A DNA stretch of 34,717 nt, taken from assembly GCA_015232025.1 (NCBI GenBank), contig JADGAL010000007.1, forward strand, positions 1 through 34,717, read 5' to 3'. The stretch comes from Alphaproteobacteria bacterium (GTDB taxonomy: Bacteria; Pseudomonadota; Alphaproteobacteria; Rhodospirillales; Magnetospirillaceae). Of this stretch, positions 4,943 to 29,878 are shown piece after piece. How positions within the stretch are numbered: the stretch's first letter is position 1; each line of letters starts with the position of its first letter. The translations under genes were made by a program, and so were the position numbers. The notes beneath the pieces were generated by a model. It made no database searches and was not told where the DNA came from. It saw only the letters and a list, made by a program, of their open reading frames with translations.

Positions 4943-5742
4943 TCTACGTCATCGGCGGCCGGGGCTTGGTCGGCTCGGCGGTGGTCCGCCGCCTGACCGC
5001 CCTGGGGCGGGCGTTCCGCGTCATCGGACGCGAGGACGCCCAATCGGTGATGGGCACAAGTTGCGACGTGCTGTTCTACTGCAACGGCAACGCCATGAAG
5101 GGCAAGGCCAACGCCAATCCCTGGTTCGACTTCGAGGCCTCGGTGGCCAGCGCGGCCCGCTACGTGATGGGCATCGAGGCGGGGCTGGTGGCCCATGTCT
5201 CGTCGATCGACGTCTATTCCGATCCCACCACCCGGCGGGGCACCGACGAGACGGCGGCGATCGACCGCGCCCGGCTGATGCCCTACGGCTTCAACAAGCT
5301 GATGGCCGAAGACATCGTGCGCCGCTACGCCCGCTCGCATCTGGTGTTCCGCCTAGCCGGGCTGGTCGGGCCGGGCCTGGCCAAGAACCCGGTCTACGAC
5401 TGGGTGACGCCGGGCAAGAAGGTGATGATTTCGCCCGACTCGGTGCTCAATTTCATGCACACCGACATCATCGCCGAGACGATGCTGGCCCTGATCGATG
5501 CGGGCGTCCGCGACGACACCTTCAACGTGGCGTCGCGCGACAGCGTGCGGATCGGCGATCTGGAGCGGATCACCGGCGCGTCAACCGACTACACCGACGA
5601 CGCGCGGTCCCATACGCAGACCTATCACATCGCGGTCGACAAGGTTTCGGCCCGCTTCCCCATGCCCAGCAGCGAGGAGTGCATCCGCCGCCACGTCGCC
5701 GGTCAGCCGACGAAGTTGGGCGACATGTCCGGGTCGGGGTAA
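4939..5742 (+). CDS. NAD-dependent epimerase/dehydratase (extended SDR)
   Basis: GTG start overlapping previous stop (GTGA); MIYVIGGRGLVGSAVVRRL Rossmann start, HVSSIDVYSD, YGFNKLMAED. Confidence 0.75.
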   Translation: MIYVIGGRGLVGSAVVRRLTALGRAFRVIGREDAQSVMGTSCDVLFYCNGNAMKGKANANPWFDFEASVASAARYVMGIEAGLVAHVSSIDVYSDPTTRRGTDETAAIDRARLMPYGFNKLMAEDIVRRYARSHLVFRLAGLVGPGLAKNPVYDWVTPGKKVMISPDSVLNFMHTDIIAETMLALIDAGVRDDTFNVASRDSVRIGDLERITGASTDYTDDARSHTQTYHIAVDKVSARFPMPSSEECIRRHVAGQPTKLGDMSGSG

Positions 5743-6752
5743 AGCGCCTCCTCGAGCGCCACGTTCATCTGGATGTGCTTGCAGAACAGGCCGCAATTGT
5801 TGGGCCGGCACCACGCCTCGATGCCGCGGTTGGTTTCCGAGTTCCAGATCTCGGTCATGGTGTTTTGGTTGATGTCGCCGATGTAGAAGGCCTCGGCGCC
5901 GCGCGCGTTCTTGCAGTAAGCGACATGGCCGTCCGCCAGCACGGCGAACTGGAAGAAATGCGCGTGGCAGGCGCGCGGATAATCCAGCTTGTCCTGATGC
6001 CAGACGTATCCGGCCGTCAGCAGCCGGGTCCGTGCGCCGGCCATGGCGGCGCCGGCGCGCTCGAAGACGGCGCGGGTCTCGGGGGCGTTCCAGAAGGCGC
6101 CCTCGTCGGCGGTGAACTGGTCGGGGGCCACCTGAAGGTAATCCACGCCGAGCGCCGCCAGCCGGGCGGCCAGCAGCGGCACCGTCGCGATGTTGTCGGG
6201 AGTGCCCAGCATGCGCACGCCGATGTTGGTCGACGAGTTCAGCCGCGCCCGCGCCTCGCAAGCCTGCCCCAGGCCGGCCAGCACGCGATCGAAATGGTCG
6301 ACGCCCTGGACCTTGCGATAGCTCTCGGCGTTGCCGCCGGCCGCCGACACGCGCAGCCAGCTCAGCGTGCGGACCAGCGCCTCGGCGTTGCGCTCGCCGA
6401 TCGCCGAGCCGTTGGTGATCAGCCCGACATCGAGACCGACCGCGCGGGCGTGCTCCATGATCTCGACGAAATCCTTGTGCAGCATCGGCTCGCCGCCGCC
6501 GGTCAGGCTGACGCCGCGGGTGCCCAAGGCGCGCATCTCGGCCAGACGGGCCTTGATCACCCCGGTGTCGAGCGTCGAGCGGTCGGTGGCGACCGTCTCG
6601 GCGTAATAGCAGAAGGCGCAGCGGTGATTGCAGCGGTTGGTCAGGTCGATTTCGACCGTCACCGGAAACGGCCGCTCGCCGGCCTTGTGGGCGGCCACGC
6701 GCTCGGGATGGTAAAAGACCTTCCTCGAGAAATCGAAGTTTCTCAACTCCAT
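5703..6752 (-). CDS. radical SAM/SPASM domain protein
   Basis: DLTNRCNHRCAFCYYAE (CxxxCxxC), GGGEPMLHKDF, C-terminal SPASM-type cysteines (CHAHFFQFAVLADGHVAYCKN...CRPNNCGLFC). Confidence 0.9.
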   Translation of the reverse strand: MELRNFDFSRKVFYHPERVAAHKAGERPFPVTVEIDLTNRCNHRCAFCYYAETVATDRSTLDTGVIKARLAEMRALGTRGVSLTGGGEPMLHKDFVEIMEHARAVGLDVGLITNGSAIGERNAEALVRTLSWLRVSAAGGNAESYRKVQGVDHFDRVLAGLGQACEARARLNSSTNIGVRMLGTPDNIATVPLLAARLAALGVDYLQVAPDQFTADEGAFWNAPETRAVFERAGAAMAGARTRLLTAGYVWHQDKLDYPRACHAHFFQFAVLADGHVAYCKNARGAEAFYIGDINQNTMTEIWNSETNRGIEAWCRPNNCGLFCKHIQMNVALEEALYPDPDMSPNFVG

Positions 6753-6768
6753 GTGCCTGTCTCCGGGC

Positions 6769-7860
6769 TCAGATGAAGTTCACGTGCGGGGGCGGCTCGT
6801 CGATCAGCGCGTGAAGATAGCGGTTGGCCTCGTCCATGCGGCAGTTGCGGCGGCAGCCGGCGATGTCCAGGGTCTTCAAGGTCTCGAAGCCTTGCCTCCG
6901 CTTCTCGCCTTCCCAAATTCCCTGGAAGGTGGCCTCGTTGATGTTGCCGTATTCGAACCGCTCGTCCAGCAGATAGGCGCTGCAGCCCGAGACGGTGCCA
7001 TCGGCCATGATGTAACCCCACAGGAACGGCACCGAGTAGCAACGGCCGTAGTGCCGCTCTTGCTCGCCATATTTTTTCATCGTCTTGGTGCGGCAGATCA
7101 CCTGAAATCTTTCGGTGTTGAGATCGCTCAGCCGCGCCTGGATCTCCTCGGGCGACGAATAGCTCAGATCCTCGTAGACCTTGGTGAGGCTGAAATTGTG
7201 CTGCGAATAGGGTTTGATCACCAGATAGTCGAGCCCGATGTCGCGGCAGATTTGCGCCAGCCCGCGCAGTTCCGCCGCGTTCTCGGGCAACAGCAGGATT
7301 TGCGCCCCGATGGCGCAGTCGATCCCCGCCGCGTCGCGCTTGGCGACGATCTGGGTCAGGTTGGCGATCACGGCGTCAAAATGGGCGGCCTTGGTGCGAT
7401 GGATGGCGGAATAGGTCTCGGCGGTCCCGGCGTTGACCGAGGCCTTGATCCACGAGACATGCGGCAGCGCCTCGTCAAGGAACCCCCTGGGTAGAACCGA
7501 CGCGTTGGTGGTCAGCGAGACGTCGATGCCGGCCCGCTTGGTGGTGGCGATCAGCTCGTTGATGGACTTGTGGAGCAAGGGTTCCCCCTCGCCGGCATAC
7601 ATGATGCTTCGAACGCCCAGGCGGCCCATCTCGGGCAGGCGCTCGCGCATCAGCGCCATGTCCAGGGATCGGGTCTTGTAGCCGATGTAATCGACGGCGC
7701 AGAACACGCAGCGATGATTGCAGGCGCCGACCGGAGCCACCTCCATATAGATGGGATAGACCCCCTTGGCCTTCTCCCAATCATCCTTCGCCGCCATCAG
7801 CGCCGCGACGCGATCGGGGTGGTAAGTCAGTTTATGGCCGTCGATGAGATAGCGATCCAT
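6769..7860 (-). CDS. radical SAM/SPASM domain protein, paralog of neighbour
   Basis: APVGACNHRCVFCAVDYIGYKTR (CxxxCxxC), AGEGEPLLHKSI, C-terminal CSAYLL...CRRNCRMD. Confidence 0.9.
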   Translation of the reverse strand: MDRYLIDGHKLTYHPDRVAALMAAKDDWEKAKGVYPIYMEVAPVGACNHRCVFCAVDYIGYKTRSLDMALMRERLPEMGRLGVRSIMYAGEGEPLLHKSINELIATTKRAGIDVSLTTNASVLPRGFLDEALPHVSWIKASVNAGTAETYSAIHRTKAAHFDAVIANLTQIVAKRDAAGIDCAIGAQILLLPENAAELRGLAQICRDIGLDYLVIKPYSQHNFSLTKVYEDLSYSSPEEIQARLSDLNTERFQVICRTKTMKKYGEQERHYGRCYSVPFLWGYIMADGTVSGCSAYLLDERFEYGNINEATFQGIWEGEKRRQGFETLKTLDIAGCRRNCRMDEANRYLHALIDEPPPHVNFI

Positions 7861-8010
7861 GCACTCTCTCGCATTGTCGGTGGGTCGGGGCGCGCCCGCA
7901 TGCGGTCACCCCGCGGAGTGTTGATCCGCGAAAGGTTATCAAAGTCTGAATATCGCGCCCTCGCGAAAAGCACTCGGCGAAATTTTCCGCCGCGAAGGGC
8001 GGCAGGAAGT

Positions 8011-8052
8011 GTCTTGACGCGGGCGGTTTCAGTGGAGCACATTCTGTCCCCG
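8011..8052 (+). promoter_or_regulatory. candidate promoter/regulatory motif, copy 1
   Basis: GTCTTGACGCGGGCGGTTTCAGTGGAGCACATTCTGTCCCCG; contains a TTGACG -35-like hexamer; 32/42 identical to 29837-29878, with exact GTCTTGACG and GAGCACATTC blocks. Confidence 0.55.
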
Positions 8053-8228
8053 TTGCGCAGAGGTCGCAATACGAACTTTCACCAGGAACGGGTGGCCGGA
8101 CCGCGATCCCGTGGCGTGGTCGTTCCCTTGCATCCTTCTGCGGCGGGACCTTTTCGTTGGCCTGTGGTCCTCGCCCACGGGTGAACCCGTCTCGAAATTC
8201 GACGGGAACGGAAAGCATCGGGGAAGGA

Positions 8229-9392
8229 ATGGTCATGAGGAAAGTGCTGCTGGTCGGGTGCGGTGCCGAGATCGGCTCGCTCCTCGTGACGATGGTGGAC
8301 CCGGCCCGCGACGGATTCCAGATCGGCGCCATTCTGACGCGCCCGATCAAGGCCGATCCCAAATACCCCGAACTCTCGTCCATCGATTCCCTGGTCGCCC
8401 GGATCGTCCTGGCGGACCCCCGCATGCTTGGCCAGGTTACCGTGGCGCGCGCGCCGGATCGCCTGGTGATCCGCGGAATTGAAATCCCCGTGCATTGGGG
8501 CGACGTGCTTTCGCTGGGATCGTTGGCGACCGGCCAGCGTTTCGACGCGTGCGTCCTGGCGACGTCGAAGACGCACATCAACGACAAGACGGTGATGGAA
8601 TCGCTGCTCTCGGTCGCCGAGGTGGTGGTGGGCGTCGCCGAGGCCGAGGGGCTGTGGGCCCTTTACCCGTCGCTCGACGGCGCTCCGGCGGCCCTGCTTC
8701 TCCGTCCGCCGGAACCGATCGGCGACCGCCGACTGTTCTGCCTGGGCTCGTGCCAGACCAATGGTTGGCAGGCGATCTGGCACGGCCTGCTCGCCGCCCT
8801 GGACCGGGCCGGCGTCGACGCGGTCCAAATGCGTGGCGCGGAGGTCGACATCGTTCATCCCGACACGCCCACCGGCCGCCTGGGCACCAAGTCCCTGTCG
8901 GCGCGCGAACAGGACCCGCGCAACAACCTGCGCCCCAGCTTCTCGCAAGTGGCCCTTTCGATGCGGCGCCTGCTGCCGGGAACGCACGGGTTGAACACCG
9001 TCTCGCTGCGCACCCTGACCATGCCGCCGGGCTTCCAGATCTGCCGCTTCTTCTTCGAGTACCGCCGCGAGGCCGGGCGACTGGATCGCTTGGCCATGCT
9101 GCGCGGTTATGGCGCGGTGGCCGAGCGGAGTCCGACCATCCTGCACCTCGCCGATCTGCCACTGGGCAGCCGTGGCTTCGAGTTCTGCGAAGCGGCCGCC
9201 GTGGTGCTGCCGCAGTCGCCCCTGTTCCAATTCCACGACGATCCCTTCGGCGCGGTCGGCCCCGGCGGCGCGCCGCTCAGCGAGATGATCGTCCAGGCCT
9301 ATGTCCACAACACGCGGGGCTACTGCCGCAGCGTCATCGAGGCGTTGCGCGGCCTGTTCTCCCCCGTCCCGCCCAAGATCTTCGCGCCGTGA
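8229..9392 (+). CDS. divergent GAPDH-fold protein
   Basis: ATG 8229 or 8235 after GGGAAGGA; KVLLVGCGAEIGSLLV N-terminus, SCQTN (cf. GAPDH SCTTN), RNNLRPSFSQVALSMRRLLPGTHG (cf. [21 protein letters not shown]), YVHNTRGYCRSVIEAL (cf. WYDNEYGYSNRVVDL). Confidence 0.6.
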   Translation: MVMRKVLLVGCGAEIGSLLVTMVDPARDGFQIGAILTRPIKADPKYPELSSIDSLVARIVLADPRMLGQVTVARAPDRLVIRGIEIPVHWGDVLSLGSLATGQRFDACVLATSKTHINDKTVMESLLSVAEVVVGVAEAEGLWALYPSLDGAPAALLLRPPEPIGDRRLFCLGSCQTNGWQAIWHGLLAALDRAGVDAVQMRGAEVDIVHPDTPTGRLGTKSLSAREQDPRNNLRPSFSQVALSMRRLLPGTHGLNTVSLRTLTMPPGFQICRFFFEYRREAGRLDRLAMLRGYGAVAERSPTILHLADLPLGSRGFEFCEAAAVVLPQSPLFQFHDDPFGAVGPGGAPLSEMIVQAYVHNTRGYCRSVIEALRGLFSPVPPKIFAP

Positions 9393-10528
9393 TGACCGTC
9401 GCCTCGCCTCCGCTGCGGCAATTGTCGTTCGCCAGCCACAAGGTGCTGAAGGACGGGTCGTGGATCGTGGTTCGGATCGATCTGCCGGACCTGCCGGTGA
9501 TCTGCAAGATCATCAAGGGCGACGCCGAAAAGCTGCGCCGCGAGGTGACCCGCATCGAAGCGCTGCGCGAGACCTTCCCGACCCTGGCCCAATTGATGCC
9601 GGCGATCGTCGGACAGGGCCATTTGCGGGGATGCATGCCCGAAGGCCGCCCCTATTATCTTCAGGAGTTCGTCGGCGGCACCACCCTTGGCGACGCCCTT
9701 CAGCAAGGCGGCGAGATCGCCACCGGGGCCCAGGCCATGCTGGGGCCGATCCTTCGCGCGCTGCTCGACCATGTCGACGAACATCGGCCGATCGAGATGG
9801 TCGATCCGCGCCAGTGGCTGTTCTCGTCCTTGACCCGCGCGCTGGACCGGCTGAAAGACCTGCCGGTGATCGACACGCTGGCGCGTGCCTCGTCCATCGT
9901 GATCAATGGCCGTCGCCGCGATGGCTTGGCCGCATGCTTGGCCAGACTTCTGCTGATGGCCGAGGCGATGCTGCCGGCCGACGCGATCACCGTGTCGGCC
10001 CTGGGCCATTGGAATTTCCATGCCCAGAACCTGATCCTGACCGACGAGAAGCCGACCGGCTTCGCCATCATCGACCCTGATTCCAGCCTGGAAACGTGCG
10101 ATCCGATGTTCGGCATCGCGCGGCTGCTCTATTCGTTCCCGCATGACGTGGCCGAACAGGGCGGCTATCGCCTGGTCACCGACCACCTGCTGCGCGACGA
10201 AATGCCCAACCCGCGTTTCGAGGTCGAATTCGGCTGGATCCACACCGCCATCGCCGCCTATGGCGCGCTTTATCACGGGCTGTTCGCGCCCGGACGGTTG
10301 CCGCGCGCCGTCGATCTCGACCGGCGGCTGGCCGATCCCGCCCAGGCCCTGCGGCTGCACCTGAACCTGCTGCTTTGCCTGATGCGGGGCGCGGCGGTCA
10401 ATCACGAGCCCGACTTCCAGGTGGTCGATGGCAATCTAAGGCATCTGCGCAACAACGGGGTGTTCCTGTATCTGCACGCCGTCGATCTGGCCAACACCCT
10501 GCTCGACACGTCGCGGGGGCGGCCGTGA
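9392..10528 (+). CDS. aminoglycoside-phosphotransferase/choline-kinase-fold protein
   Basis: ATGA overlap with upstream gene; ALGHWNFHAQNLILTDEKPTGFAIIDPDSSLETCDPMFGIARLLYSF resembles the HxDxxxxN...D-x-(D/E) APH catalytic region, with HWNFHAQN at the catalytic loop. Confidence 0.6.
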   Translation: MTVASPPLRQLSFASHKVLKDGSWIVVRIDLPDLPVICKIIKGDAEKLRREVTRIEALRETFPTLAQLMPAIVGQGHLRGCMPEGRPYYLQEFVGGTTLGDALQQGGEIATGAQAMLGPILRALLDHVDEHRPIEMVDPRQWLFSSLTRALDRLKDLPVIDTLARASSIVINGRRRDGLAACLARLLLMAEAMLPADAITVSALGHWNFHAQNLILTDEKPTGFAIIDPDSSLETCDPMFGIARLLYSFPHDVAEQGGYRLVTDHLLRDEMPNPRFEVEFGWIHTAIAAYGALYHGLFAPGRLPRAVDLDRRLADPAQALRLHLNLLLCLMRGAAVNHEPDFQVVDGNLRHLRNNGVFLYLHAVDLANTLLDTSRGRP

Positions 10529-11268
10529 CGGAACGCGCCGCGCTGGTCACCGGAGGCAGCAAGGGAATCGGGCGGGCCTGCGTCGAGGTCTTCGCCGCGC
10601 AAGGGGCGCAAGTGGCCTTCACTTGGCATTCCGACGCCCAGGCCGCCGCCGATCTGGAGGCCTGGGCGGCGCAGGCCGGCCATCGAGTGACCGGCATCCG
10701 TTCGGACGCCCGCGACCCCGCCGCCTACGCGCCCTTGCGCGATGCGGTGCGCGCCTTCACCGGCGGGCGGCTGGACGTGCTGGTCAACAATGCGGGCGAC
10801 GCCATCCGCCGGTCGAGCTTCGCCGCGTCCGACGACGCGCTGTGGACCGACAGCCTGACGCTGAACCTGATGTCCGCGGTGCGCGCCTGCCACGCCTTCC
10901 TTGATCTGCTGAAGGCGTCAAAGGCCGGCGTGGTGGTCAACGTCTCGTCAATCGCCGCCGTCACCACCGGGGCCGGCGATTCCCTGCATTACGGCGTCGC
11001 CAAGGCGGCGCTCGACACCTTCACCAAGGGTCTGGCGCGCGAGACGGATGGCGGCGCGCTGCGGGTGGTCGGGGTGGCGCCGAGCGCCATCGCCACAGAT
11101 TTCCAGACCCGCCTTTCGTCGACCGAGCGTCTGGACCGGATCATCGCCCAGACCCCGGCCGGGCGCATCGGCACGGCCGAGGAGGTCGGCGCCGTGATCG
11201 CCTTTCTGGCCTCGCCGCTTGCCGGCTATATTAGCGGCGCGATTCTGCCGATCACCGGCGGCCGCTAG
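10525..11268 (+). CDS. classical SDR oxidoreductase
   Basis: GTGA overlap; VTGGSKGIGRA, NNAGD, NVSSIAA...YGVAK (YxxxK). Confidence 0.92.
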   Translation: MTERAALVTGGSKGIGRACVEVFAAQGAQVAFTWHSDAQAAADLEAWAAQAGHRVTGIRSDARDPAAYAPLRDAVRAFTGGRLDVLVNNAGDAIRRSSFAASDDALWTDSLTLNLMSAVRACHAFLDLLKASKAGVVVNVSSIAAVTTGAGDSLHYGVAKAALDTFTKGLARETDGGALRVVGVAPSAIATDFQTRLSSTERLDRIIAQTPAGRIGTAEEVGAVIAFLASPLAGYISGAILPITGGR

Positions 11269-11289
11269 GTCTTGGATAGGGAGAAGACG

Positions 11290-12285
11290 GTGCAAGAAAC
11301 CAGAGTGGCCGTCATTGGCAGCGGATCGTTTTCCGGTTCGGACTTCGTCGATCTTCTGCTGGAGGATCCGTCGATGCGGGTTCTCGGCCTAAGCAGGTCG
11401 CCGGAATCCCATCCGGTGTTCCTGCCCCACCTGCGCCATGGCACCGATCGCTACACGTTCCGCCAAGCCCATCTGGTCTCGGAGATGGAGCGGGTGATCG
11501 CCGCCCTGGACGCGTTCGAGCCGCATTACGTGGTGAACTTCGCCGCCCAGGGCGAGGTGCGATCCAGCTTCGACCATCCGGTCGAATATTTCCGCACCAA
11601 CACCCTGGCCATGATCGAACTGAGCGAGGCCCTGCGGCGGCGGTCGTGGCTGCGCAAATACGTCCACATCTCGACGCCCGAGATCTACGGCACCTGCGAC
11701 CATGCGGTGACCGAAAACCAGCCGATGAATCCCAGCTCGCCTTATGCCGCCTCGAAGGCCGGCGCCGACATGTTCAACGGCGTGCTGCACCGGACGGCGG
11801 ACTTTCCGGTGTCGTGGGTGCGGGCGACCAATGTGTACGGCGCCCACCAGCAGCTTTACCGCATCATGCCGCGCACGGCGATCTATCGGAAGCTGGGACG
11901 GATCCTGCGTCTGGACGGCGGCGGCGTGGCGGTCAAATCCTACATCCACATCCGCGACGTCTCGCGCGGCGAATTGGCCGTGATGCTGCGCGGCCGGCCC
12001 GGTCAAGTCTACCATCTTTCGCCCGACGGCGGTATCTCGATCCGCGAGGTGGTCGAGATGATCTGCCGCATGGCCGGCGCCGACTTCGCCAGCTCGGTCG
12101 AGATCGGCCCCGAGCGGCCGGGCCAGGACAAGGCCTATGTGCTGGATTCCACCCTGGCGCGAACCGAACTGGACTGGGCGCCGCGCATTTCGTTCGAAGA
12201 GGGCGTGCGCGCGCTGGTCGACTGGGTCGAGACCAACTGGGAAATCATCCGCACTCTGCCCCTGGATTACGAGTTCCGGCCGTAA
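11290..12285 (+). CDS. NAD-dependent epimerase/dehydratase, nucleotide-sugar 4,6-dehydratase-like
   Basis: GTG 11290 preceded by AGGGAG (TTG 11272 is an alternative); VIGSGSFSGSDFV, VNFAAQGEV, HISTPEIYG, NPSSPYAASKAGADM, RATNVYG, HIRDVSRG. Confidence 0.8.
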   Translation: MQETRVAVIGSGSFSGSDFVDLLLEDPSMRVLGLSRSPESHPVFLPHLRHGTDRYTFRQAHLVSEMERVIAALDAFEPHYVVNFAAQGEVRSSFDHPVEYFRTNTLAMIELSEALRRRSWLRKYVHISTPEIYGTCDHAVTENQPMNPSSPYAASKAGADMFNGVLHRTADFPVSWVRATNVYGAHQQLYRIMPRTAIYRKLGRILRLDGGGVAVKSYIHIRDVSRGELAVMLRGRPGQVYHLSPDGGISIREVVEMICRMAGADFASSVEIGPERPGQDKAYVLDSTLARTELDWAPRISFEEGVRALVDWVETNWEIIRTLPLDYEFRP

Positions 12286-12295
12286 GGAGCCCATC

Positions 12296-13357
12296 GTGAC
12301 CGCATTGCCCACCACCACCACCGCCGCCGTCCTGGTCGCACAAGGGGCGCCGCTCGAAATCCACGAACTGGAGATTCCCCCCCTGAAGGAGGGGCAGGTT
12401 CTGGTGTCGATCGCCCATTCCGGCATCTGCCACACCCAGTTGGGCGAAGTGCGCGGCAAGCGAGGCCCCGATCCCTGGCTGCCCCATTGCCTGGGCCACG
12501 AGGGCGGCGGCACCGTGCTGGCGATCGGTCCGGGCGTGACCCGCGTGGCGGCCGGCGACCGGGTCGTGGTCTCGTGGATCCGGGGCCCCGGCATGGCCGC
12601 CCCCGGCGCGATCTATCAGGCCGCCGGCCTGGGCAAGGTCAATTCCGGCCCCGCCAACACCTTCATGACGACCTCGGTGGTGGCCGAGAACCGGCTGACC
12701 GCGCTGCCGCCCGACTTCCCGCTCGACGTCGCGGCGCTGCTGGGTTGCGCCGTGCCCACCGGGGCGGGCACCGTGCTGAAGACGGCCGGCGCCAAGGCGG
12801 GCGAGAGCCTGGCCGTGTTCGGACTGGGCGGAGTGGGGCTGAGCGCGATGATCGCCGGGGTCTATGCCGGCTGCGCGCCGATCATCGCCGTGGACGTGGT
12901 CGCGGCCAAGCTGGACGTGGCCCGGCGGCTGGGCGCCACCCATGTCGTCGACGCCTCGCGGACCGACGCCGCCGCCGCGGTGCGCGAAATCACCGGCGGC
13001 AAGGGCGTCGCGGTGGCGATCGAGGCGGCCGGAGCGCCCAAGGCCATGGAAAGCGCCTACGCCGCCACCCTGGTCGCGGGTGGCCGCACCGTGCTGGCCG
13101 GCAACTTGCCGCATCAGGCGACCATCACCATCGACCCCTTCCCGCTTTTGCTGGGCCGCAAACTGCTGGGCGGCGGCGGCGACAGCGCGCCGGCCGAGGA
13201 CATCCCGCGCTACATCGAGGCCCACCAAGTCGGCCGGATGCCGCTTGAGGGCCTGATCAGCCACCGCTTCGGCCTCGAAGACATCAATCGCGCCATGGAC
13301 ATGCTGGAACGCGGCGAGGTGACGCGGGCCATCGTCTCGATGACGGGCGACCGATGA
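12296..13357 (+). CDS. zinc-type alcohol dehydrogenase (MDR family), no structural-zinc cysteine cluster
   Basis: AAGGAGcccatcGTG; SGICHTQLGE, LGHEGGGTV, GCAVPTGAGTVL, GLGGVGLSAM cofactor motif. Confidence 0.9.
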   Translation: MTALPTTTTAAVLVAQGAPLEIHELEIPPLKEGQVLVSIAHSGICHTQLGEVRGKRGPDPWLPHCLGHEGGGTVLAIGPGVTRVAAGDRVVVSWIRGPGMAAPGAIYQAAGLGKVNSGPANTFMTTSVVAENRLTALPPDFPLDVAALLGCAVPTGAGTVLKTAGAKAGESLAVFGLGGVGLSAMIAGVYAGCAPIIAVDVVAAKLDVARRLGATHVVDASRTDAAAAVREITGGKGVAVAIEAAGAPKAMESAYAATLVAGGRTVLAGNLPHQATITIDPFPLLLGRKLLGGGGDSAPAEDIPRYIEAHQVGRMPLEGLISHRFGLEDINRAMDMLERGEVTRAIVSMTGDR

Positions 13358-14130
13358 GCGGCGACGCCCTGGCCGGCAGGCGCGTCCTGGTCACCGGCGC
13401 CTCGAAGGGGTTGGGCCGGGTGGCGGCCGAAGCTTTCGCGGCGGCCGGCGCGCGGGTGCTGGGAGCCGGCCGCAGCGCCGACAAGCTGAACGATCTTCTC
13501 GCCACCCTGGATCCGGCGGGCGGCCACGCGATCTTCGCGGTCGATCTGCTGACCCAGGCGGGGGTCGCCGCCCTGGCGGCGTTCGGGCAAGAGCGCTTCG
13601 GCGGCTTCGACGTGATCCTGCACGCCCTGGGCGGCGGCTATGGCTTCCGCGACCCCCTGCCGAGTTGGGAGCAGTTCGAAACACTGCATCGCCTCAATCT
13701 GGGCGCGGGCGCCGAGTTGAACCGGCTGCTGGTCCCCGGCATGGCCGAGGCCGGCGGCGGGCGTATCATCCATGTCGGCTCGGTGGCATCGACCGACGCC
13801 ATCGCCTCGGTCGGCTACACCACCATCAAGGCGGCGCTCTCGGGCTATGTCCGCACCCTGGGGCGCGCCATGGCGCCACGCGGCGTCGTCGTCACCGGCA
13901 TCCTCCCCGGCGCCTTCTACGCCCCCGAGAATTCGTGGCGACGCATCGAGGCGACCAAACCGGAGGTGGTCGCCGATTTCGTGCGCGAACGCCTGCCGCG
14001 TGGCTATATTGCCGAGGCGGCCGAGATCGTTCCGCTGATGCTGTTTCTGGCCGGCCCCGGCGCCTCGATGATGGGTGGCGCGCTGGTGCCGATCGATGCC
14101 GGCGAAGCGGTCGCCCATGTCGGCCCGTGA
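13354..14130 (+). CDS. classical SDR oxidoreductase
   Basis: ATGA overlap; VTGASKGLGRV, HVGSVAS...YTTIK (YxxxK). Confidence 0.92.
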   Translation: MSGDALAGRRVLVTGASKGLGRVAAEAFAAAGARVLGAGRSADKLNDLLATLDPAGGHAIFAVDLLTQAGVAALAAFGQERFGGFDVILHALGGGYGFRDPLPSWEQFETLHRLNLGAGAELNRLLVPGMAEAGGGRIIHVGSVASTDAIASVGYTTIKAALSGYVRTLGRAMAPRGVVVTGILPGAFYAPENSWRRIEATKPEVVADFVRERLPRGYIAEAAEIVPLMLFLAGPGASMMGGALVPIDAGEAVAHVGP

Positions 14131-14137
14131 GGATGGA

Positions 14138-14827
14138 ATGATGGAACATTACGACATCGGCTATTTCGACCCGACGGTCGATCGCCGCATACCACGCGGT
14201 TTCCGCACGCTGAAGCAGCGGCTGATCGCCTTCGAGCTGGGCCGCGAGTACTACGACGGCGCGCGCGAGAACGGCTATGGCGGGTTCCGCTATGATGGCC
14301 GCTGGGCCCGGCTGCTGCCGCCGATCATCGAGCGCTACGGCCTGACCGCGTCCTCGTCGGTGCTCGACCTTGGATGCAAGAAGGGCTTCTTCATGCACGA
14401 CTTGGCCGAGGCGCTGCCCGGAATCACGGTCAAGGGAGTGGAAAACCACCCCTACCCGATCGAGACCGCGATGCCCTCGGTGCGCGACCGCATGACCCTC
14501 GCTCCCTACGAGGCATTGCCCTTCGCGGATGGGGCCTTCGACTTCGTCATGGCGTTCTCGGCCGTCTACATGCTCAATCTGGGCGGCGTCGCGCAAGCTT
14601 TGCGCGAGATTCAGCGGGTGAGCGGGGGGCGTTCCTACGTCACCCTGGGCGCCTACGAGACCGACGAGCAGAAAGAGATCTTCATGAACTGGACGCTTCT
14701 CGGCACCACCGTCCTGCATGTCGACGAGTGGCGCCGCGTAATGGAATGGGCGGGCTATACGGGCGATTACTTTTTCACCACGCCCAAAGCCCTGAACGTG
14801 TCCTTCGCCGAAGAGGCCGGCCAATGA
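14138..14827 (+). CDS. class I SAM-dependent methyltransferase
   Basis: VLDLGCKKGFFMHDLAE, VKGVENHPYPIE, LPFADGAFDFVMAFSAVYML. Start at 14138 or 14141. Confidence 0.85.
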   Translation: MMEHYDIGYFDPTVDRRIPRGFRTLKQRLIAFELGREYYDGARENGYGGFRYDGRWARLLPPIIERYGLTASSSVLDLGCKKGFFMHDLAEALPGITVKGVENHPYPIETAMPSVRDRMTLAPYEALPFADGAFDFVMAFSAVYMLNLGGVAQALREIQRVSGGRSYVTLGAYETDEQKEIFMNWTLLGTTVLHVDEWRRVMEWAGYTGDYFFTTPKALNVSFAEEAGQ

Positions 14828-16626
14828 AACTCGCTGAATACGTCGCCGATTTCATCGCCAAGCTGGGTGTGGGCCAAGTGTTCGGCGTCACCGGCGGCGG
14901 CGCCATGCATCTCAACGACGCCATGGGCGGCCATCCCGACCTGGAATTCGTCGTCACCCATCAAGAGCAATCGGCCGCAATGGCCGCCGAGGCCCACGCC
15001 CGGATGACCGGCCGCATCGGCGTTTGCCACGTCACCACCGGCCCCGGCGGCACCAATGCCATCACCGGGGTGGCCGGCGCCTGGATCGATTCCATTCCCA
15101 TGCTGGTGGTGTCGGGCCAAGTGACCACCGGCACGATGATCGCGGGCGCCCAACTGCGCCAATTGGGCGTCCAGGAGATCGACATCATTCCGATGGTCCG
15201 CCCGATCACCAAATACGCGGTGACGGTGACCGAGCCGGGGATGATCCGCCACCACCTCGAAAAGGCGGTCCATCTGGCCACCACCGGCCGGCCGGGGCCG
15301 GTGTGGATCGACCTGCCGCTGGATGTCACGAACGAGCGGATCGAGCCCGCCTCGCTGCCCGGCTACACGCCCGAGCGGAGCCCGGTCCGTCCCGCCGCGC
15401 ATTTCGAGCGCCGGTTGGCCGAATGCGTGCGCATGCTGGGCGAGGCCAAGCGGCCGGTGCTGATCGCCGGCAACGGCATCCGCCTAGCCGGCGCGGTGGC
15501 CGAGTTCGGCGCGATCGTCGAACGGCTGCGCATCCCGGTGATCACCTCTTGGAACGCCAGCGATCTGATCGATTCCGGCCATCCCTGCCATGCCGGCCGG
15601 GCCGGCCTGTTCGGCGACCGGGCGGGCAACTTCACCGTCCAGAACGCCGACCTGCTGCTGATCGTCGGCTCGCGCATGTCGATCCCGCAGACCGGGCACA
15701 ACACCGCCCAGTTCGCCCCCCATGCCCGCCAGATCGTGGTGGACGTGGACGAGAACGAACTGATGAAGCCGACGCTGCGACCGGACGTGGCGATGGCGGC
15801 CGACGCCAAGGTGTTCCTGACGGCCCTGCTGGCGCGCGGCGACGCGATCGGCCGCGACAAGGGCGTCGACGGCTGGCTGGAGACGGTCGCCGACTGGCGG
15901 CGCCGCTATCCGGTGGTGCTGGACGAGTACCGCACCCTGCCCAGCCAAGTGAACTCGTTCCATTTCATCGACCGTTTGGCCGATCGCCTGCCGTCCGACG
16001 CCGTGGTGGTCACCGACATGGGGACCAGCTTCACCTGCACCATGCAGACCTTCGCCATCAAGAAGGGCCAGCGCCTATTCACGTCGAGCGGACTGGCCTC
16101 GATGGGCTTTGGCCTGCCGGGGGCGATTGGCGCCTGCTACGCGGCCGGCCGGCGCCAAGTGATCTGCGTCAGCGGCGACGGCGGCTTGATGTTCAATGTG
16201 CAGGAACTGCAAACCCTGGCCCACAACAAGCTGCCGGTGGTGCTGTTCGTGCTGGCCAATCGCGGCTATCTGACGATGAAGCTGATGCAGCACAATCACT
16301 TCGGCCGCTTCGTCGGCTCCGAGCCAAGCTCGGGAGTCAGTTGCCCCGACTTCGTCGAGCTGGCCAAGGCGTTCGGGATTCCGGGCCTCCACATCCGCTC
16401 GAACCGGGATCTGGACGAGCATCTCGACGCGATCCTGGCCAGCGACGGCCCGATGGTTTGCGAGATCGAGATGCCCGAGATGCAGCCGCTGATTCCGCGC
16501 GTGCAGACCATGAAGGGTCCGGACGGCCGGCTACTTCCGACGCCTATGGAGGACATGTACCCATTCCTCGACCGCGCCGAGTTGCGCGCCAACATGGTGG
16601 CGGCCCAGGCCGCCGAAGCGGAGTGA
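14824..16626 (+). CDS. thiamine-diphosphate-dependent enzyme, acetolactate-synthase-like
   Basis: ATGA overlap; FGVTGGGAMHLNDAM, HQEQSAAMAAEAHAR catalytic Glu, TTGPGGTNAITGVAGAW, GDGGLMFNVQELQTLAHNKLPVVLFVLANRGY ThDP motif. Confidence 0.93.
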   Translation: MKLAEYVADFIAKLGVGQVFGVTGGGAMHLNDAMGGHPDLEFVVTHQEQSAAMAAEAHARMTGRIGVCHVTTGPGGTNAITGVAGAWIDSIPMLVVSGQVTTGTMIAGAQLRQLGVQEIDIIPMVRPITKYAVTVTEPGMIRHHLEKAVHLATTGRPGPVWIDLPLDVTNERIEPASLPGYTPERSPVRPAAHFERRLAECVRMLGEAKRPVLIAGNGIRLAGAVAEFGAIVERLRIPVITSWNASDLIDSGHPCHAGRAGLFGDRAGNFTVQNADLLLIVGSRMSIPQTGHNTAQFAPHARQIVVDVDENELMKPTLRPDVAMAADAKVFLTALLARGDAIGRDKGVDGWLETVADWRRRYPVVLDEYRTLPSQVNSFHFIDRLADRLPSDAVVVTDMGTSFTCTMQTFAIKKGQRLFTSSGLASMGFGLPGAIGACYAAGRRQVICVSGDGGLMFNVQELQTLAHNKLPVVLFVLANRGYLTMKLMQHNHFGRFVGSEPSSGVSCPDFVELAKAFGIPGLHIRSNRDLDEHLDAILASDGPMVCEIEMPEMQPLIPRVQTMKGPDGRLLPTPMEDMYPFLDRAELRANMVAAQAAEAE

Positions 16627-17066
16627 GCGGCGCGCGGGAGCGCGAGGCGGCGGTGATCCTGCCCCGCCGCGACGGGCGCATCCTGATGCAGTTGCGCGAC
16701 GAGAAGGAAAGCATCGTCTTTCCGGGCTCGTGGGGCTATTTCGGCGGAACCATCGAACCGGGCGAAACCCCGGAACAGGCGGCCCGCCGCGAACTGGCCG
16801 AGGAGACCGGCCTCGAGGCGACCCACTTGCGGCCCATCGGACATTTTCCGCGCCTGCGCGACGAAATGCCGGCCATCCACGCCTTCGGTTGCGAACTCGA
16901 CCGGCCAGCCGAGACGATCGAGCTTCGCGAAGGCATGGATTTCGCGCTGGTGTCCGTCGAGGACATACGAGCGGGCCGCCTGTACTCGCCGAACCTGGGG
17001 CGGTCCTTTCCCGTGGTGAACGAGCCGTTCATGATGACCCTGTTCGCTGCCGGTTTGACATGGTAA
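16623..17066 (+). CDS. Nudix hydrolase
   Basis: GTGA overlap; complete Nudix box GTIEPGETPEQAARRELAEETGL. Confidence 0.92.
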   Translation: MSGAREREAAVILPRRDGRILMQLRDEKESIVFPGSWGYFGGTIEPGETPEQAARRELAEETGLEATHLRPIGHFPRLRDEMPAIHAFGCELDRPAETIELREGMDFALVSVEDIRAGRLYSPNLGRSFPVVNEPFMMTLFAAGLTW

Positions 17067-17105
17067 CGTCGGCCAGCGCGGGCAAATGCAAGAGAGGGTA
17101 ACCAG

Positions 17106-18548
17106 ATGAGCGACACGGTGCCGATTTTCGACGCTCAGATCGTGAAAAAGTACGAGCGTCGCCGCGGCTCCTGGTTCACCTCTTATCCCTACCAGTCGCA
17201 ATGGCGGGAAGACCCGTGCACCGCCGACGTCGACTTCGCCGAGGCTTTGCGCCGGAACGTGCCCGCCGGGGCGCCCGTGGCGCTTTACGTGCATTTCCCC
17301 TACTGCCTACGACAATGCCTATTTTGCCAATGCGTGATGGTGGTGTCGCAGGATCGGACGCTTTACCGCGCCTATCTCGACAAGCTGGCCGCCGAGATCG
17401 CCCTGCTGGTCGCCCACTTCGAGAAGACCGGCTTTCCGAACGTGCGCGAGGTCCATTTCGGCGGCGGATCGCCCTCGATTCTCGACCCCGACGAATTCCG
17501 TCACTTCGCCTCGATCCTGTCGCCCATCGTCGATTTCAAGACTCTGGACGAATGCGCCATCGAGATCGATCCGCGCTTCGGCATCGACGCCGACATGATG
17601 CGGGCCTATCACGAGGTTGGCATCAACCGGATCTCGTTTGGCATCCAGGATTTCGACCCCGCCGTCCAGAAGGCCATCGCCCGCGTCAACCCGCCGGAAA
17701 TGATCGAGGCCCTGCTGGTGCCCGAGGTGCGCGCCTTGTTCACCGGCGTCAGCTTCGACATCCTGTACGGGCTGCCCAAGCAGACCCGCGAGGGTCATCG
17801 CGCGACGATGGAACGGGTGCTCGCCTTCGCGCCCGACCGGGTGAATGTGTGCCTGCTGGGCCACCGGCCCGACATCTTCCCGCATCAGCGCGCTTACCGC
17901 GAGGAAGACCTGCCCTCGACCGAGGATCTGGTCCGCATGCGCATCGACACCATCGACCTGCTGCTTGGCCACGGCTACGGGCGGATCGGGCTTGACCACT
18001 TCGCCAAGCCGCACGACGTGCTTTCCGTCGCCAAACGCGAAGGACCGCTGATGCGGACGGTGCTGGGCTATTCGCGCGGCCGCTGCGAGACCATCCTGGG
18101 CGTCGGGCCGTCGGCGATCAGCACCTTCCCCGACTGCTACACCCAGAACTACTATAGCCTGGACAAATACACCGAGTGCTTGGACCAGGGACGATTGCCG
18201 CTGGTGCGCAGCTGCATCCTCGATGCCGACGACCTGCTGCGGCGCCATGTCATCTTCGCCTTCATCACCCATGAGGGGGTCTCGTTCGCCGAGGTGGAAG
18301 GCCGCTTTGGCGTCGATTTCCGCGCCACCTTCACCGAAGAGCTGAAGGGACTGCGCGAACTCGAAGCCGATGGGCTGGTCGAGATCGACGACCAGGGCAT
18401 CCGCCTGACGCCGCTGGGCACCATCAACACGCGTCACGTCTGCGCCGTGTTCGACCGCTATGGCAGGGATTCCTACCTGCAAGCCCGCGACCTTGGCGAT
18501 GGCCGCCGCTCGCTGCAACGCTCGGTCAACCACGCCGCGACCCCATGA
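17106..18548 (+). CDS. HemN-family radical SAM protein (oxygen-independent coproporphyrinogen III oxidase-like)
   Basis: KYERRRGSWFTSYP, YVHFPYCLRQCLFCQC (CxxxCxxCxC), GGGSPSIL, DILYGLPKQT, GLDHFAKPHD, LGVGPSAIS, CYTQNYYSLDKY follow HemN layout throughout. Confidence 0.85.
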   Translation: MSDTVPIFDAQIVKKYERRRGSWFTSYPYQSQWREDPCTADVDFAEALRRNVPAGAPVALYVHFPYCLRQCLFCQCVMVVSQDRTLYRAYLDKLAAEIALLVAHFEKTGFPNVREVHFGGGSPSILDPDEFRHFASILSPIVDFKTLDECAIEIDPRFGIDADMMRAYHEVGINRISFGIQDFDPAVQKAIARVNPPEMIEALLVPEVRALFTGVSFDILYGLPKQTREGHRATMERVLAFAPDRVNVCLLGHRPDIFPHQRAYREEDLPSTEDLVRMRIDTIDLLLGHGYGRIGLDHFAKPHDVLSVAKREGPLMRTVLGYSRGRCETILGVGPSAISTFPDCYTQNYYSLDKYTECLDQGRLPLVRSCILDADDLLRRHVIFAFITHEGVSFAEVEGRFGVDFRATFTEELKGLRELEADGLVEIDDQGIRLTPLGTINTRHVCAVFDRYGRDSYLQARDLGDGRRSLQRSVNHAATP

Positions 18549-20446
18549 CGACACCAGCCGACGCCGAGCGGACGCCCCTCGAAGCCCTGGCCGCCGATCT
18601 GGCGGCGACCAGGATGCCCAACAACCGGGTGCTGCTGTTCAACGCGCCGGGCTTCCTGCGCGGCACCCTGCGCCGCGACATCGTCCGTCGGCGCGCCGTC
18701 TACGCCTATCCGCCGCGCGGGCTGCTCAACATCAAGGAGGCGATCCTCGGCCTGAATCTCGAGGTTCGGGTCCGCGATCTGAATTTTCTGATGCTCAAGC
18801 GCATCGCCGAGGACGACGCCTTCGATCCCGAGGACTGGCTGCGTTTGGCGCGGGACGAGATCGACGACTTCGATCCGGCGGTGATCGGCGTATCGTGGCT
18901 GACCGTCACCGCCGACGTCACCGGGCGCGATTACTACGCCACCGATCTGCTGGCCGAACTGAAGCGAATGGACCGCCACATCGTCGTGCTCGGCGGCTCG
19001 ATCGCCAGCGACGAGAAGGAATTCTATCTCGACAGCGGGCTCGCGCATTTCGTGGTCGTCGGCGAAGGCGAGAACAAGGCGCCGCACCTGTTGGCCCTGC
19101 TGTCCGGCCGCGAGCCGGCGCGGCCCGAGATGCGGGGAATCTTCTTCAGGCGGGATGGCGCGGTCGTCGAAAGCCGGGGTGCCGCGGACAAGGTGGTTCC
19201 GACCGGCGGCATCGTGCCGTTCCTGGACGATCTGCCGATCGCCTCGTATCGCAAGGTGGGTTCGCTCAATCCGTTCTCGCGGATGGTCGGCGTCGACGTC
19301 CCCTATGGCACCCTCCTGCTGAACCGCGGCTGCCGGGCCAATTGCGCGTTCTGCGGCGTGACGGTGTTCATGGGCCGCGGGCTTCGGCAGCATCCCGTGG
19401 ACGCGGTGATTGACGAGGCGCGCCATCTGGTCCATCACCACGGCATCCGCCATTTCGAGATGCTGGACGACGATTTCCTGGGCACGCCATCGTTGCGCGA
19501 AGGGGTAGAGGGGCTGTTGACCGAGATGGTCGCCCTCAGGCGGTCGCACGGCATCACCTGGTCCGCCGGCAACGGACTGATCGCCTCGTCGCTGGACAAT
19601 CGCATGCTGCGACTGATGAGCGATTCCGGCTGCGTCGGCTTCCGCATCGGCATCGAGTCGGGCGACCTCGCCATGCTGAAACGCATGCGCAAGCCGACCA
19701 GCATTCCCATGCTGCGCAAAATGGCGCGCCGGCTCGACGGCTATCCCGAGATATTCGCCTGCGGCAACTACATCCTGGGACTTTTCAACGAAGAGACCTT
19801 CGGGCAGATGCTGAATACCGTTCGGCTGGCCGACGAACTGGATCTCGACTGGTCCTCGTACACCACGTTCCAAGTGACCAACAAGGAACGCGCCCGCATC
19901 GACAACATCACTGGCGGCAAGCGTCAGACCGCCGATTTCATTCCCACCAAAGACAGCGCGAGCCGAGAATTGGGCGTGCCGGCCGGGGTGGTCACCGGCC
20001 CCGCCGTATTCGACCTCGACCCCGCCGCGGTTCCCGACACGGAACAAGTCAAGCAGATCTGGTTCGCCTTCAACCTCGTCAACAATTACATCCGCAACAA
20101 GAACCTGCGGCCGGGCGGCAACGCGCTGAAGCTGGCGCGATGGCTGGAGGCCGTGGCGATCAGCTATCCGGACAACGCCTACATGCCGCTTTACGCCGCC
20201 CTGGCGAACCGCGCTCTGGGTCGCGACGACGATGCGCTGGCGGCGCACCGGCAGGCTGCGGAACTGGTCGCCGGTTCGGCCTATTGGCGGCGCTGTTTCG
20301 ACGATTTCGACCTGATGCGGCTGATCGAGACCTTCCCCCGCGACGCCGCCGAGATCTTCGACACCGTGGCGGCCATGGCCGCCCGCTACGATCCGGTGTT
20401 CCGATCCCTCACGGAGGACGCAGTTCTTGCCCCCCAAGGTCATTGA
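18545..20446 (+). CDS. cobalamin-binding-type radical SAM protein (BchE-like class B layout) with C-terminal TPR-like region
   Basis: ATGA overlap; N-terminal B12-binding-like Rossmann region (DPAVIGVSWLTVTAD...IVVLGGSIAS...FVVVGEGE), NRGCRANCAFCGV (CxxxCxxC), IGIESGDLAMLKRMRKP. Confidence 0.85.
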   Translation: MTTPADAERTPLEALAADLAATRMPNNRVLLFNAPGFLRGTLRRDIVRRRAVYAYPPRGLLNIKEAILGLNLEVRVRDLNFLMLKRIAEDDAFDPEDWLRLARDEIDDFDPAVIGVSWLTVTADVTGRDYYATDLLAELKRMDRHIVVLGGSIASDEKEFYLDSGLAHFVVVGEGENKAPHLLALLSGREPARPEMRGIFFRRDGAVVESRGAADKVVPTGGIVPFLDDLPIASYRKVGSLNPFSRMVGVDVPYGTLLLNRGCRANCAFCGVTVFMGRGLRQHPVDAVIDEARHLVHHHGIRHFEMLDDDFLGTPSLREGVEGLLTEMVALRRSHGITWSAGNGLIASSLDNRMLRLMSDSGCVGFRIGIESGDLAMLKRMRKPTSIPMLRKMARRLDGYPEIFACGNYILGLFNEETFGQMLNTVRLADELDLDWSSYTTFQVTNKERARIDNITGGKRQTADFIPTKDSASRELGVPAGVVTGPAVFDLDPAAVPDTEQVKQIWFAFNLVNNYIRNKNLRPGGNALKLARWLEAVAISYPDNAYMPLYAALANRALGRDDDALAAHRQAAELVAGSAYWRRCFDDFDLMRLIETFPRDAAEIFDTVAAMAARYDPVFRSLTEDAVLAPQGH

Positions 20447-22340
20447 AATCGATCCCGTCCGGCTTGGAGCGAACGAGCCCGCCCTGGCCCAGGCCGAGCG
20501 GATCATCGCCCGCCTGTTCCCCGCCCGCAGCGTCGGTCGGGTGCTGCTGATCGCGCCGCCCGACGCCGATTCCGGCTTGTTCGACTTTGAGGTGGCCAGG
20601 CGTCGGCGCTACTGGAACCATCCGCAATACGGATTGGGCTTGGTCGGCGCCGTGCTGCGCAAGGCCGGCTACGAGGTGCGCGTCCTCAACCTCAACCACG
20701 TCGTTCTGGGCGCTAGCCAGACCTGCGAAGGGTCCGAGACGTTCGACTTCACCGCCACGGTGGAACAATCGATCAGCCGTGAAATCGACACCTTCGCGCC
20801 GGATCTGGTCGGCGTCACCTGCATGTACTCGCTGGCGCACAAGTCGATGACGGACGTCTGCGCCCGCGTCCGCGCGCACGACGCCTCGCTGCCGCTGTTC
20901 GTCGGCGGCATTCACGTGACCAACTCGTTCGTCGATCCGCTGACCAGGGAGTCGCTGCTCGACGCCTTGTCGTTCGTCGACGGGCTGGTGCTTTACGAGG
21001 CCGAATACGCCTTCCTGGACTTCCTCGAGGTGGTGAACCACAAGGCTGGGTCCGAACGGCTACGCCAACTGGCGCTGTTCGACGGCGACAGCCTCGTCCA
21101 TTTCTCGGCTTGGCATCGCCCGAACGGCGCGGAACTCGACGTTATTCCGGCGCATGACCTGATCGCCTCGCACGAGATGTCCTCGACCGGGCGGGTCGGG
21201 GCCTTCTACAGTCTGGTCGATCCCCGTGTCCGCATGGCTACGGCCCAGTTGAATCGCGGCTGCCGTTTCCAATGCACCTTTTGCAGCGTTCGCAACTTCA
21301 ACGGGCTGGGGGTCCGCAACCGCAGCGTCTCGTCGGTCCTTGAGGAATTGAAGATCCTGCGGTTCGAGCACGGAGTCGGCCACATCACTTGGCTGGACGA
21401 CGATCTGCTTTACGATCGTAAACGCGCCATCGAACTGTTCGAGGGCATCGCGCGCGATGGCATCGACATCACCTGGGACTGCTCGAACGGCTTGGTGGCC
21501 GGCTCGTGCGCCGAGGACGTCATCGCCGCCGCCGCCGGCAGCGGCTGCATCGGTCTTTATCTCGGCATAGAGTCTGGCAACGCCGAGATCCTAAGGCGCA
21601 TCCGCAAGCCGGGCAATCCCGACGTGTTCCTGCGCGCCGCCGAGACGGTGCGACGGCACGAGAGCATCCACACGCGGGCCTTCCTGATCATCGGCTTCCC
21701 CGGCGAAACCTTCGATATGCTGCGCGACACCTTCTGGCTGGCTCGCGAAATGGACCTTGACTGGTGCCACGTCAACGTCCTGCAAACGCTGCCCAACACG
21801 CCGATGTTCGCCGAAACGGCGGCCGACCAGGAAAGCATCGACTTCACCGAGATCCGCTTCACGTCCGGCGGCTTCGGTAAGCACCAGAAAAGCCGCGACC
21901 CCAAGGCGCGGGCGGTATTTCTGCGCGACTTCCCCAACATCTTCGACCGGCGGCCCGGCGATTCGGTGCCCAGCCGGGAAGAGTTGGACGATGTCTGGGC
22001 CTACATCAACTTCTACGCCAATTTCGCCCGGCTGTTCCGCGAGGACCGCCCACGCAAGCTCGAGCAAAACCTGCGCTACGTGAAGAACATCATCGACGTC
22101 GTCGATCCCGACAACGCCTTCGCCTACTACTTCGCCGCCTATCTGGCCAAGCGCCTGAACCAGGCGGCCGATCAAGCGTGGACCGCCCGCTGCGAATCGC
22201 TCGTAAACGGCAACGAGGTCTGGCAGAATCGGTTCATCGAGGTGGGAATCGAAGTGGGACATCTGAAAAGCGGTGGCTTTTCGGTGCCCGAAGCTCGTTT
22301 CCGCGGTGCCGTCGGCGGCAAGCTCATGGATGCCCGATGA
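20427..22340 (+). CDS. cobalamin-binding-type radical SAM protein, paralog of preceding gene
   Basis: TTG start preceded by GGAGG; B12-binding-like N-terminus (APDLVGVTCMYSLAHKSM...LFVGGIHVT), NRGCRFQCTFCSV, LGIESGNAEILRRIRKPGNP. Confidence 0.85.
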   Translation: MPPKVIEIDPVRLGANEPALAQAERIIARLFPARSVGRVLLIAPPDADSGLFDFEVARRRRYWNHPQYGLGLVGAVLRKAGYEVRVLNLNHVVLGASQTCEGSETFDFTATVEQSISREIDTFAPDLVGVTCMYSLAHKSMTDVCARVRAHDASLPLFVGGIHVTNSFVDPLTRESLLDALSFVDGLVLYEAEYAFLDFLEVVNHKAGSERLRQLALFDGDSLVHFSAWHRPNGAELDVIPAHDLIASHEMSSTGRVGAFYSLVDPRVRMATAQLNRGCRFQCTFCSVRNFNGLGVRNRSVSSVLEELKILRFEHGVGHITWLDDDLLYDRKRAIELFEGIARDGIDITWDCSNGLVAGSCAEDVIAAAAGSGCIGLYLGIESGNAEILRRIRKPGNPDVFLRAAETVRRHESIHTRAFLIIGFPGETFDMLRDTFWLAREMDLDWCHVNVLQTLPNTPMFAETAADQESIDFTEIRFTSGGFGKHQKSRDPKARAVFLRDFPNIFDRRPGDSVPSREELDDVWAYINFYANFARLFREDRPRKLEQNLRYVKNIIDVVDPDNAFAYYFAAYLAKRLNQAADQAWTARCESLVNGNEVWQNRFIEVGIEVGHLKSGGFSVPEARFRGAVGGKLMDAR

Positions 22341-23894
22341 AGAAACTGGCCCTCGTCTATCCAAACCAGCATTGGCTCAAGGACGTCATCGTCACCACCT
22401 GGACCATCGACGCTTCCGCCGCATCCTGTCCGACGAATGTCCCCCCCGCGCTGTCGCCACATTGCGGGTCTACGAATGGGACCGCATCAATTCCCAGCCG
22501 GATCGGATCGCGAAGATCTGCGAAATCTGGGGCACCAGCGTGGAAGACCTGAACCGCATCCCGCAAGGTCACCCGGGACAGCTTGGTCTTCTAACGCGAC
22601 GAGCACGCCGGGCTGGAGGCCCACCGACATCATGATCGATTCCGCGTCCGCGCTTTACCGCTGGATAGTCGAAAACAACATCCGCATCGCGGCGAACAAT
22701 CCTTTCCCGTGGGCTCCCGGGCACATGATGCACGACACGGACAACCTGCTCAGGATGATCCATCTGAGGGAGTTGGACCCGAACCGTATGTACATCTACC
22801 CGCTGCAGGAATCCCACATTCCGGCGGTCATGGCCGACATGTACCGCAAGCACTTCGCGCCGCACACGAACGTGCATTTCATGGTCAGCAACGCGGCCGT
22901 CGCGTGGTGCCGGGAAATCAGCCAACTCGCGCCGCAGATGACGGTCGACATCGGCCTGTCGCACAGCAAGTTCGCCTGGACCGATCCCAGCAGGGCGAGG
23001 CTTTACCCCTTCGCCGGCGGCCTGCACTGGATCGTCGAGAACGAGGTGGTCTACAGGTCGCACCTCGACTGGCTGAAGCGGCGGCGGGCCAGCCCCGGCT
23101 ATCAGCCGCTCCGCGACGTGCCCGCCATTCAGGAAGAGGAGTTCATCCGGTTTCTGGGCGGTGACACCAGCAAACTGGCCCTGGTCCACTTCAAGCACGT
23201 GATAGCCAATGCGACCATCCCGGCGCGGCCGGAAGACTTCGATCAGGCCTTCTCGATCCTGAAGGACACCGGACACACCATCGTGGCGGTCGGTCGCGAG
23301 GAATGCCCGGAGTACTTCAGGAAAGTTCATGGAGTCATCGACTATGGGAAAAGCCAGTTCACCAGCTTCCGCAACGATCTGCTGCTGTTCAAGGCGGCCT
23401 CGATCGCCCTGGTGAACGCCTCGGGCTTGACCGTGGTGGGCCAGCTTCTCGACACGCCAATGGTCTCGATGAACAGTTGGATGCTGCGCACCGGGCTTTT
23501 GACCTCGGATCGAGGGGTGTTCCTGCCGGCCATGGTCCGGCATAAGGCGTCGGGGCGCTTGCTGAAATTCATCGAGCATGTCGCGCTGATCGACCGCCGG
23601 CCGCAGCCCTGGAACATGGAACCAGACCAGTACGCCCAGGCGGGGAGTTGCGGTAATCCGCTGACCTTCCGCTGCGGCGAACTCGAAGACTACGAGCCCC
23701 TGGCGGCATCGCCCGACGAAGTTGCCGAGGCCGTCAAGGAGGTCCTTCTCCTCAAGGAACGGGACGAACCGCTGACCTCGTTACAGGTGAGCTTTCAGAA
23801 CCTGACGGCGAACTTCCACGCCAAATGGCAGGAAGGCCGCATCTCGCGATATTTCGCCGAAAAGCACGCAGCGGCGATCGAGCCGGGCTATTGA
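22337..23894 (+). pseudogene. glycosyltransferase-like gene (possibly TIGR04372-like) split across frames by apparent frameshifts
   Basis: ATGA start MKKLALVYPNQHWLKDVIVTTWTID in frame 2, plausible continuation RFRRILSDECPPRAVATLRVYEWDRINSQPDRIAKICEIWGTSVEDLNRIPQGHPGQLGLL in frame 1, then frame 0 to 23894 (TDIMIDSASALYRWIVENN...). Confidence 0.5.
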
Positions 23895-29820: not shown

Positions 29821-29836
29821 TCGCCAGGGAAGAAGC

Positions 29837-29878
29837 GTCTTGACGGAGGCAGTTTCCCTAGAGCACATTCCCAGCCCG
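29837..29878 (+). promoter_or_regulatory. candidate promoter/regulatory motif, copy 2
   Basis: GTCTTGACGGAGGCAGTTTCCCTAGAGCACATTCCCAGCCCG, 32/42 identical to 8011-8052, same orientation relative to downstream operon. Confidence 0.55.

Follow-up and report, generated by a model that had tools for sequence, protein, structure and literature searches.

In the window, by which we mean the whole 34,717-nt stretch of DNA analysed here, two copies of a short intergenic block are probably twin housekeeping promoters of the RpoD (sigma70) type. Each would drive a plus-strand operon for glycan biosynthesis, and the twins would have been copied or co-recruited and kept under selection. The kind of element is most likely ordinary, and the twin arrangement is modestly interesting rather than a new type of genetic switch. 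If this reading is true, matching promoters would allow both halves of an accessory gene cluster for surface glycans to be expressed together; it would supply a start-site prediction for a fragmentary genome and leave the general understanding of promoters unchanged.

Two copies of one block precede two plus-strand operons

The window is an entire contig (34.7 kb) of a 3.7 Mb MAG that is 81% complete and comprises 499 contigs. An earlier note on this DNA had reported that 8011-8052 and 29837-29878 share 32 of 42 bases in an ungapped comparison, and a recount gave the same figure. The best block limits add 10 nt 5' of that frame, placing copy 1 at 8001-8044 and copy 2 at 29827-29870, both on the plus strand, with 35 of 44 positions identical in an ungapped alignment and a 3' limit at the C of CACATTC, one base past CACATT. 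At offsets of at least 50 nt, the twin block is the sole pair in the whole window to match at 33 or more of 42 positions. A simple composition model, which treats intergenic and coding DNA alike, predicts about 0.0008 pairs at 35/44 across the window, a value that precedes counting that both copies are intergenic, and 0.055 pairs at 32/42; the pattern appeared in none of the window shuffles. The twin block is real and non-random. In the spacer, mismatches between the copies come in short runs; GTTTC (8026-8030 and 29852-29856, plus strand) and GAGCACATTC are exact, and no further TTGAC-N6-9-GTTTC was present in 358 kb of this genome. The flanks 5' of the copies and the leaders 3' of them align no better than shuffled sequence, which bears out the earlier description of the surroundings as otherwise unrelated.

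Both copies lie wholly between genes, 5' of plus-strand operons, and the non-coding position claimed for them holds. Copy 1 sits in the divergent gap 7861-8228, and copy 2 begins seven nt past the stop codon of the gene at 27922-29820. The operon starts given previously, 8229 and 29949, are correct or nearly so; operon 1 has a first gene that could also start at 8235. The divergent gap also contains a terminator-like hairpin with a T-rich tail on the minus strand (7975-7992), just 5' of copy 1.

Both copies resemble sigma70-type promoters

Each copy reads TTGACG-N18-CACATT on the plus strand. The predicted -35 hexamers lie at 8014-8019 and 29840-29845 and the predicted -10 hexamers at 8038-8043 and 29864-29869, each pair separated by an 18-nt spacer. 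In both copies the -35 matches TTGACA at 5/6 positions and the -10 matches TATAAT at 3/6, with the A at position 2 and the T at position 6 present. In a scan with a small, hand-picked matrix built from other TTGAC-type sites of this genome, each copy outranked every other promoter-like site in its leader, scoring 10.9 against at most 5.8 for the next different plus-strand site. A strict scan for the E. coli-type consensus returned no promoter in either leader; it misses both copies because their -10 matches at only 3/6 positions.

Promoter statistics were based on about 358 kb of this genome, with 124 upstream regions totalling 22.6 kb. TTGAC occurred 26 times in these regions compared with 13.6 in shuffles, with reverse-strand counts also raised and many gaps shared or divergent. 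TTGAC followed by xAxxxT was found six times at an 18-nt spacer (twin sites included; 0.6 in shuffles) and four times at a 17-nt spacer (0.7 in shuffles). Both the enrichment and the matrix scores draw on few sites, all anchored on TTGAC.

Upstream of orthologous epimerase-hldE operons in relatives, TTGAC sites joined by a 17-18-nt spacer to a plausible -10 are frequent but not universal, lying some 50-120 nt ahead of the start codon. Such sites precede several of the operons (L013, L016, L023, L024, L082, L083 and L088) and are missing from many others. They read TTGACC-N17-TAGAAT in L082 and L083, TTGACC-N17-TAGTGT in L024, TTGACC-N18-TATAGC in L023 and L088, and TTGACA-N18-CATAGT in L016, and the -35 region of L013, CGTCTTGACGG, equals that of copy 2. 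The exact 44-nt block is absent upstream of the orthologous operons, whose common feature is only the TTGAC promoter-like site. The shared promoter suggested in the earlier note is well supported by three lines of evidence, namely the rank of TTGACG-N18-CACATT in each leader, the enrichment of TTGAC-N17/18-xAxxxT, and the orthologue sites.

Mapped start sites in the alphaproteobacterium Magnetospirillum gryphiswaldense define sigma70-like promoters with cTTGcc and TATaaT at 11-20 nt spacing, many of them followed by leaders of 150-300 nt (PMC9549626). The two copies resemble such RpoD promoters in their TTG-type -35, in A2 and T6 of the -10, in a spacing within the reported range and in having a leader ahead of the operon; they differ in their weak -10, CACATT, and in sharing far more sequence than two independent RpoD promoters should. 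RNA polymerase would be expected to initiate at both sites, near 8050 and 29876, giving predicted leaders of about 179 nt for operon 1 and about 73 nt for operon 2. At a sigma70 promoter, transcription begins 6-9 nt past the -10.

Similarity beyond the hexamers and the search for further copies

Outside the two hexamers, the copies are identical at 23 of 32 positions, whereas no more than 15/32 positions agree in any of 275 other pairs of upstream segments anchored on TTGAC (mean 8.4, sd 2.5), so the similarity of the twins needs a cause. As judged from sequence comparison, it implies either a promoter that was copied and has since been constrained or a local shared regulator with its operator. 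Under the twin-promoter reading, one promoter would have been copied within the accessory cluster, or recruited into it together with its twin, and both would have been kept under selection for joint expression of the two operons. As a marker of duplication, flanking homology was absent around either copy.

A local DNA-binding regulator that reads GTTTC-N4-GAG and/or the region 5' of the -35, and jointly controls these two sigma70 promoters alone, is a possible but doubtful cause. The extra conservation would then be its operator, with GTTTC as a putative contact, a proposal that would add to the promoter reading and not replace it. The clustering of the spacer differences around exact GTTTC and GAGCACATTC, a similarity outside the hexamers above that of all other promoter pairs, and the position of both operons in one cluster speak for such a protein. 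Against it, neither half of the block was found convincingly elsewhere in the 3.7 Mb, 81% complete MAG, no clear dyad is common to both copies outside GTCTTGAC, the block is not conserved in relatives, and no DNA-binding regulator family was detected among the window genes tested. A more specific version, in which a regulator dedicated to the cluster, and whose gene lies beyond the window, switches both surface-glycan operons through a putative operator, GTTTC-N4-GAGCACATTC, overlapping the -10, appears unlikely. A literature search for GAGCACATTC returned unrelated papers only.

The earlier note had also suggested a dedicated regulator or sigma factor. An alternative sigma factor dedicated to these two sites, with a consensus of its own, would agree with the two long exact blocks and the non-canonical -10. 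The consensus spacings of Sigma54, RpoH and ECF factors are not known to fit both copies, TTGACG with N18 conforms to TTGAC-N17/18-xAxxxT as seen upstream of other genes in the genome, and the window genes tested yielded no sigma factor. The genome-wide motif search that the note had proposed yielded no further sites before functionally related genes. With three mismatches allowed, the full pattern had no other match in this genome, from which about one fifth is missing and might hold copies, or in 148 relatives, and a plasmid collection contained no match to the block. Among 317 genomes of the order, two-mismatch matches outside this genome numbered five, compared with four for a reversed control pattern.

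Two-mismatch matches in two genomes (G011 and G037) and a three-mismatch match in another contig of this genome (C101) are alike, reading TTGACGTAGAA.GT.TCCTC.GGGCACATC, which suggests one sequence common to all three, probably coding, and not promoters. Across about 85,000 species genomes there was one exact match (L069), which we rejected as a chance occurrence, as an open reading frame of 850 codons covers it on the opposite strand of an AT-rich genome. Since no further copies were found, order-wide matches stay at control level and the exact match is intragenic, neither a wide regulon nor a dedicated sigma factor is supported; both are unlikely, the sigma factor very much so. What survives of the suggestion is a regulator confined to the two promoters, which is possible.

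A transcribed leader element or a mobile remnant

A post-initiation leader element of the JUMPstart/ops kind, bound by RfaH or a NusG paralogue, or another polysaccharide-operon RNA element, is highly improbable. The likeness to JUMPstart/ops, the RfaH target, lies in a short conserved non-coding block positioned ahead of long polysaccharide-type operons. The ops element contains GGCGGT, which is present in copy 1, but copy 2 has GGCAGT, and the GGCGGTAG core of JUMPstart/ops is absent from both, copy 1 reading GGCGGTTT and copy 2 GGCAGTTT. Unlike JUMPstart/ops, which lies in the transcribed leader, the 44-nt block spans the -35 to the -10 and ends there, and it is known from only two copies in one genome. 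Rfam gave no match to the region, and its RNA folds were no better than those of shuffles, which makes a DNA element likelier than an RNA element. The PF02357 profile matched no NusG-family protein in the 81% complete MAG, universal NusG included; NusG is nearly universal and the MAG incomplete, so that the missing match is probably an assembly gap.

The two copies bracket 21.8 kb of the cluster that is apparently absent from the sole congener compared, an arrangement that would suit the remnant of a mobile element or recombination site, by which the cluster's gene cassettes are moved, and not a promoter. This explanation is extremely unlikely, given that no further copies exist in the sequences searched, that flanking repeats or homology are lacking, and that the block boundaries coincide with those of the promoter.

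The two operons belong to an accessory-looking glycan cluster

The preferred twin-promoter reading links two operons of one gene cluster. Operon 1 (8229-23894, plus strand) encodes an unassigned protein (8229-9392), an SDR enzyme, an epimerase, a zinc-type alcohol dehydrogenase-like protein, a second SDR enzyme, a methyltransferase, an acetolactate-synthase-like TPP enzyme, a HemN-like protein, two radical-SAM proteins and a glycosyltransferase. Operon 2 (29949-34404, plus strand) encodes an NAD-dependent epimerase, an HldE-like cytidylyltransferase/PfkB kinase and a group 1 glycosyltransferase, and its epimerase-hldE gene order is kept in relatives. We consider the cluster to be of surface-glycan type because the window genes include glycosyltransferases, NAD-dependent epimerases, a nucleotidyltransferase, the HldE-like kinase/cytidylyltransferase, SDR enzymes and radical-SAM proteins. 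It looks accessory, since nothing in the sole congener compared matched the 8229 protein, and the HldE-like protein there is only 45% identical.

The 8229-9392 product had no Pfam or NCBIfam match, and its rare relatives comprise proteins of 56% identity in a genome of the same order (G059), 38% in one of the same family (G025) and 36% on a Pantoea alhagi plasmid. In the product of the gene at 27922-29820, an NAD-dependent epimerase/reductase domain is naturally fused to a family-2 glycosyltransferase domain. On the minus strand, two neighbouring radical-SAM-type genes (5703-7860) are read away from copy 1, the one at 6769-7860 carrying a SPASM domain. Inside operon 1, at 17106-22340, the HemN-like protein is accompanied by the two other radical-SAM proteins, one of which carries a B12-binding domain, a set that suggests an unusual radical modification step.
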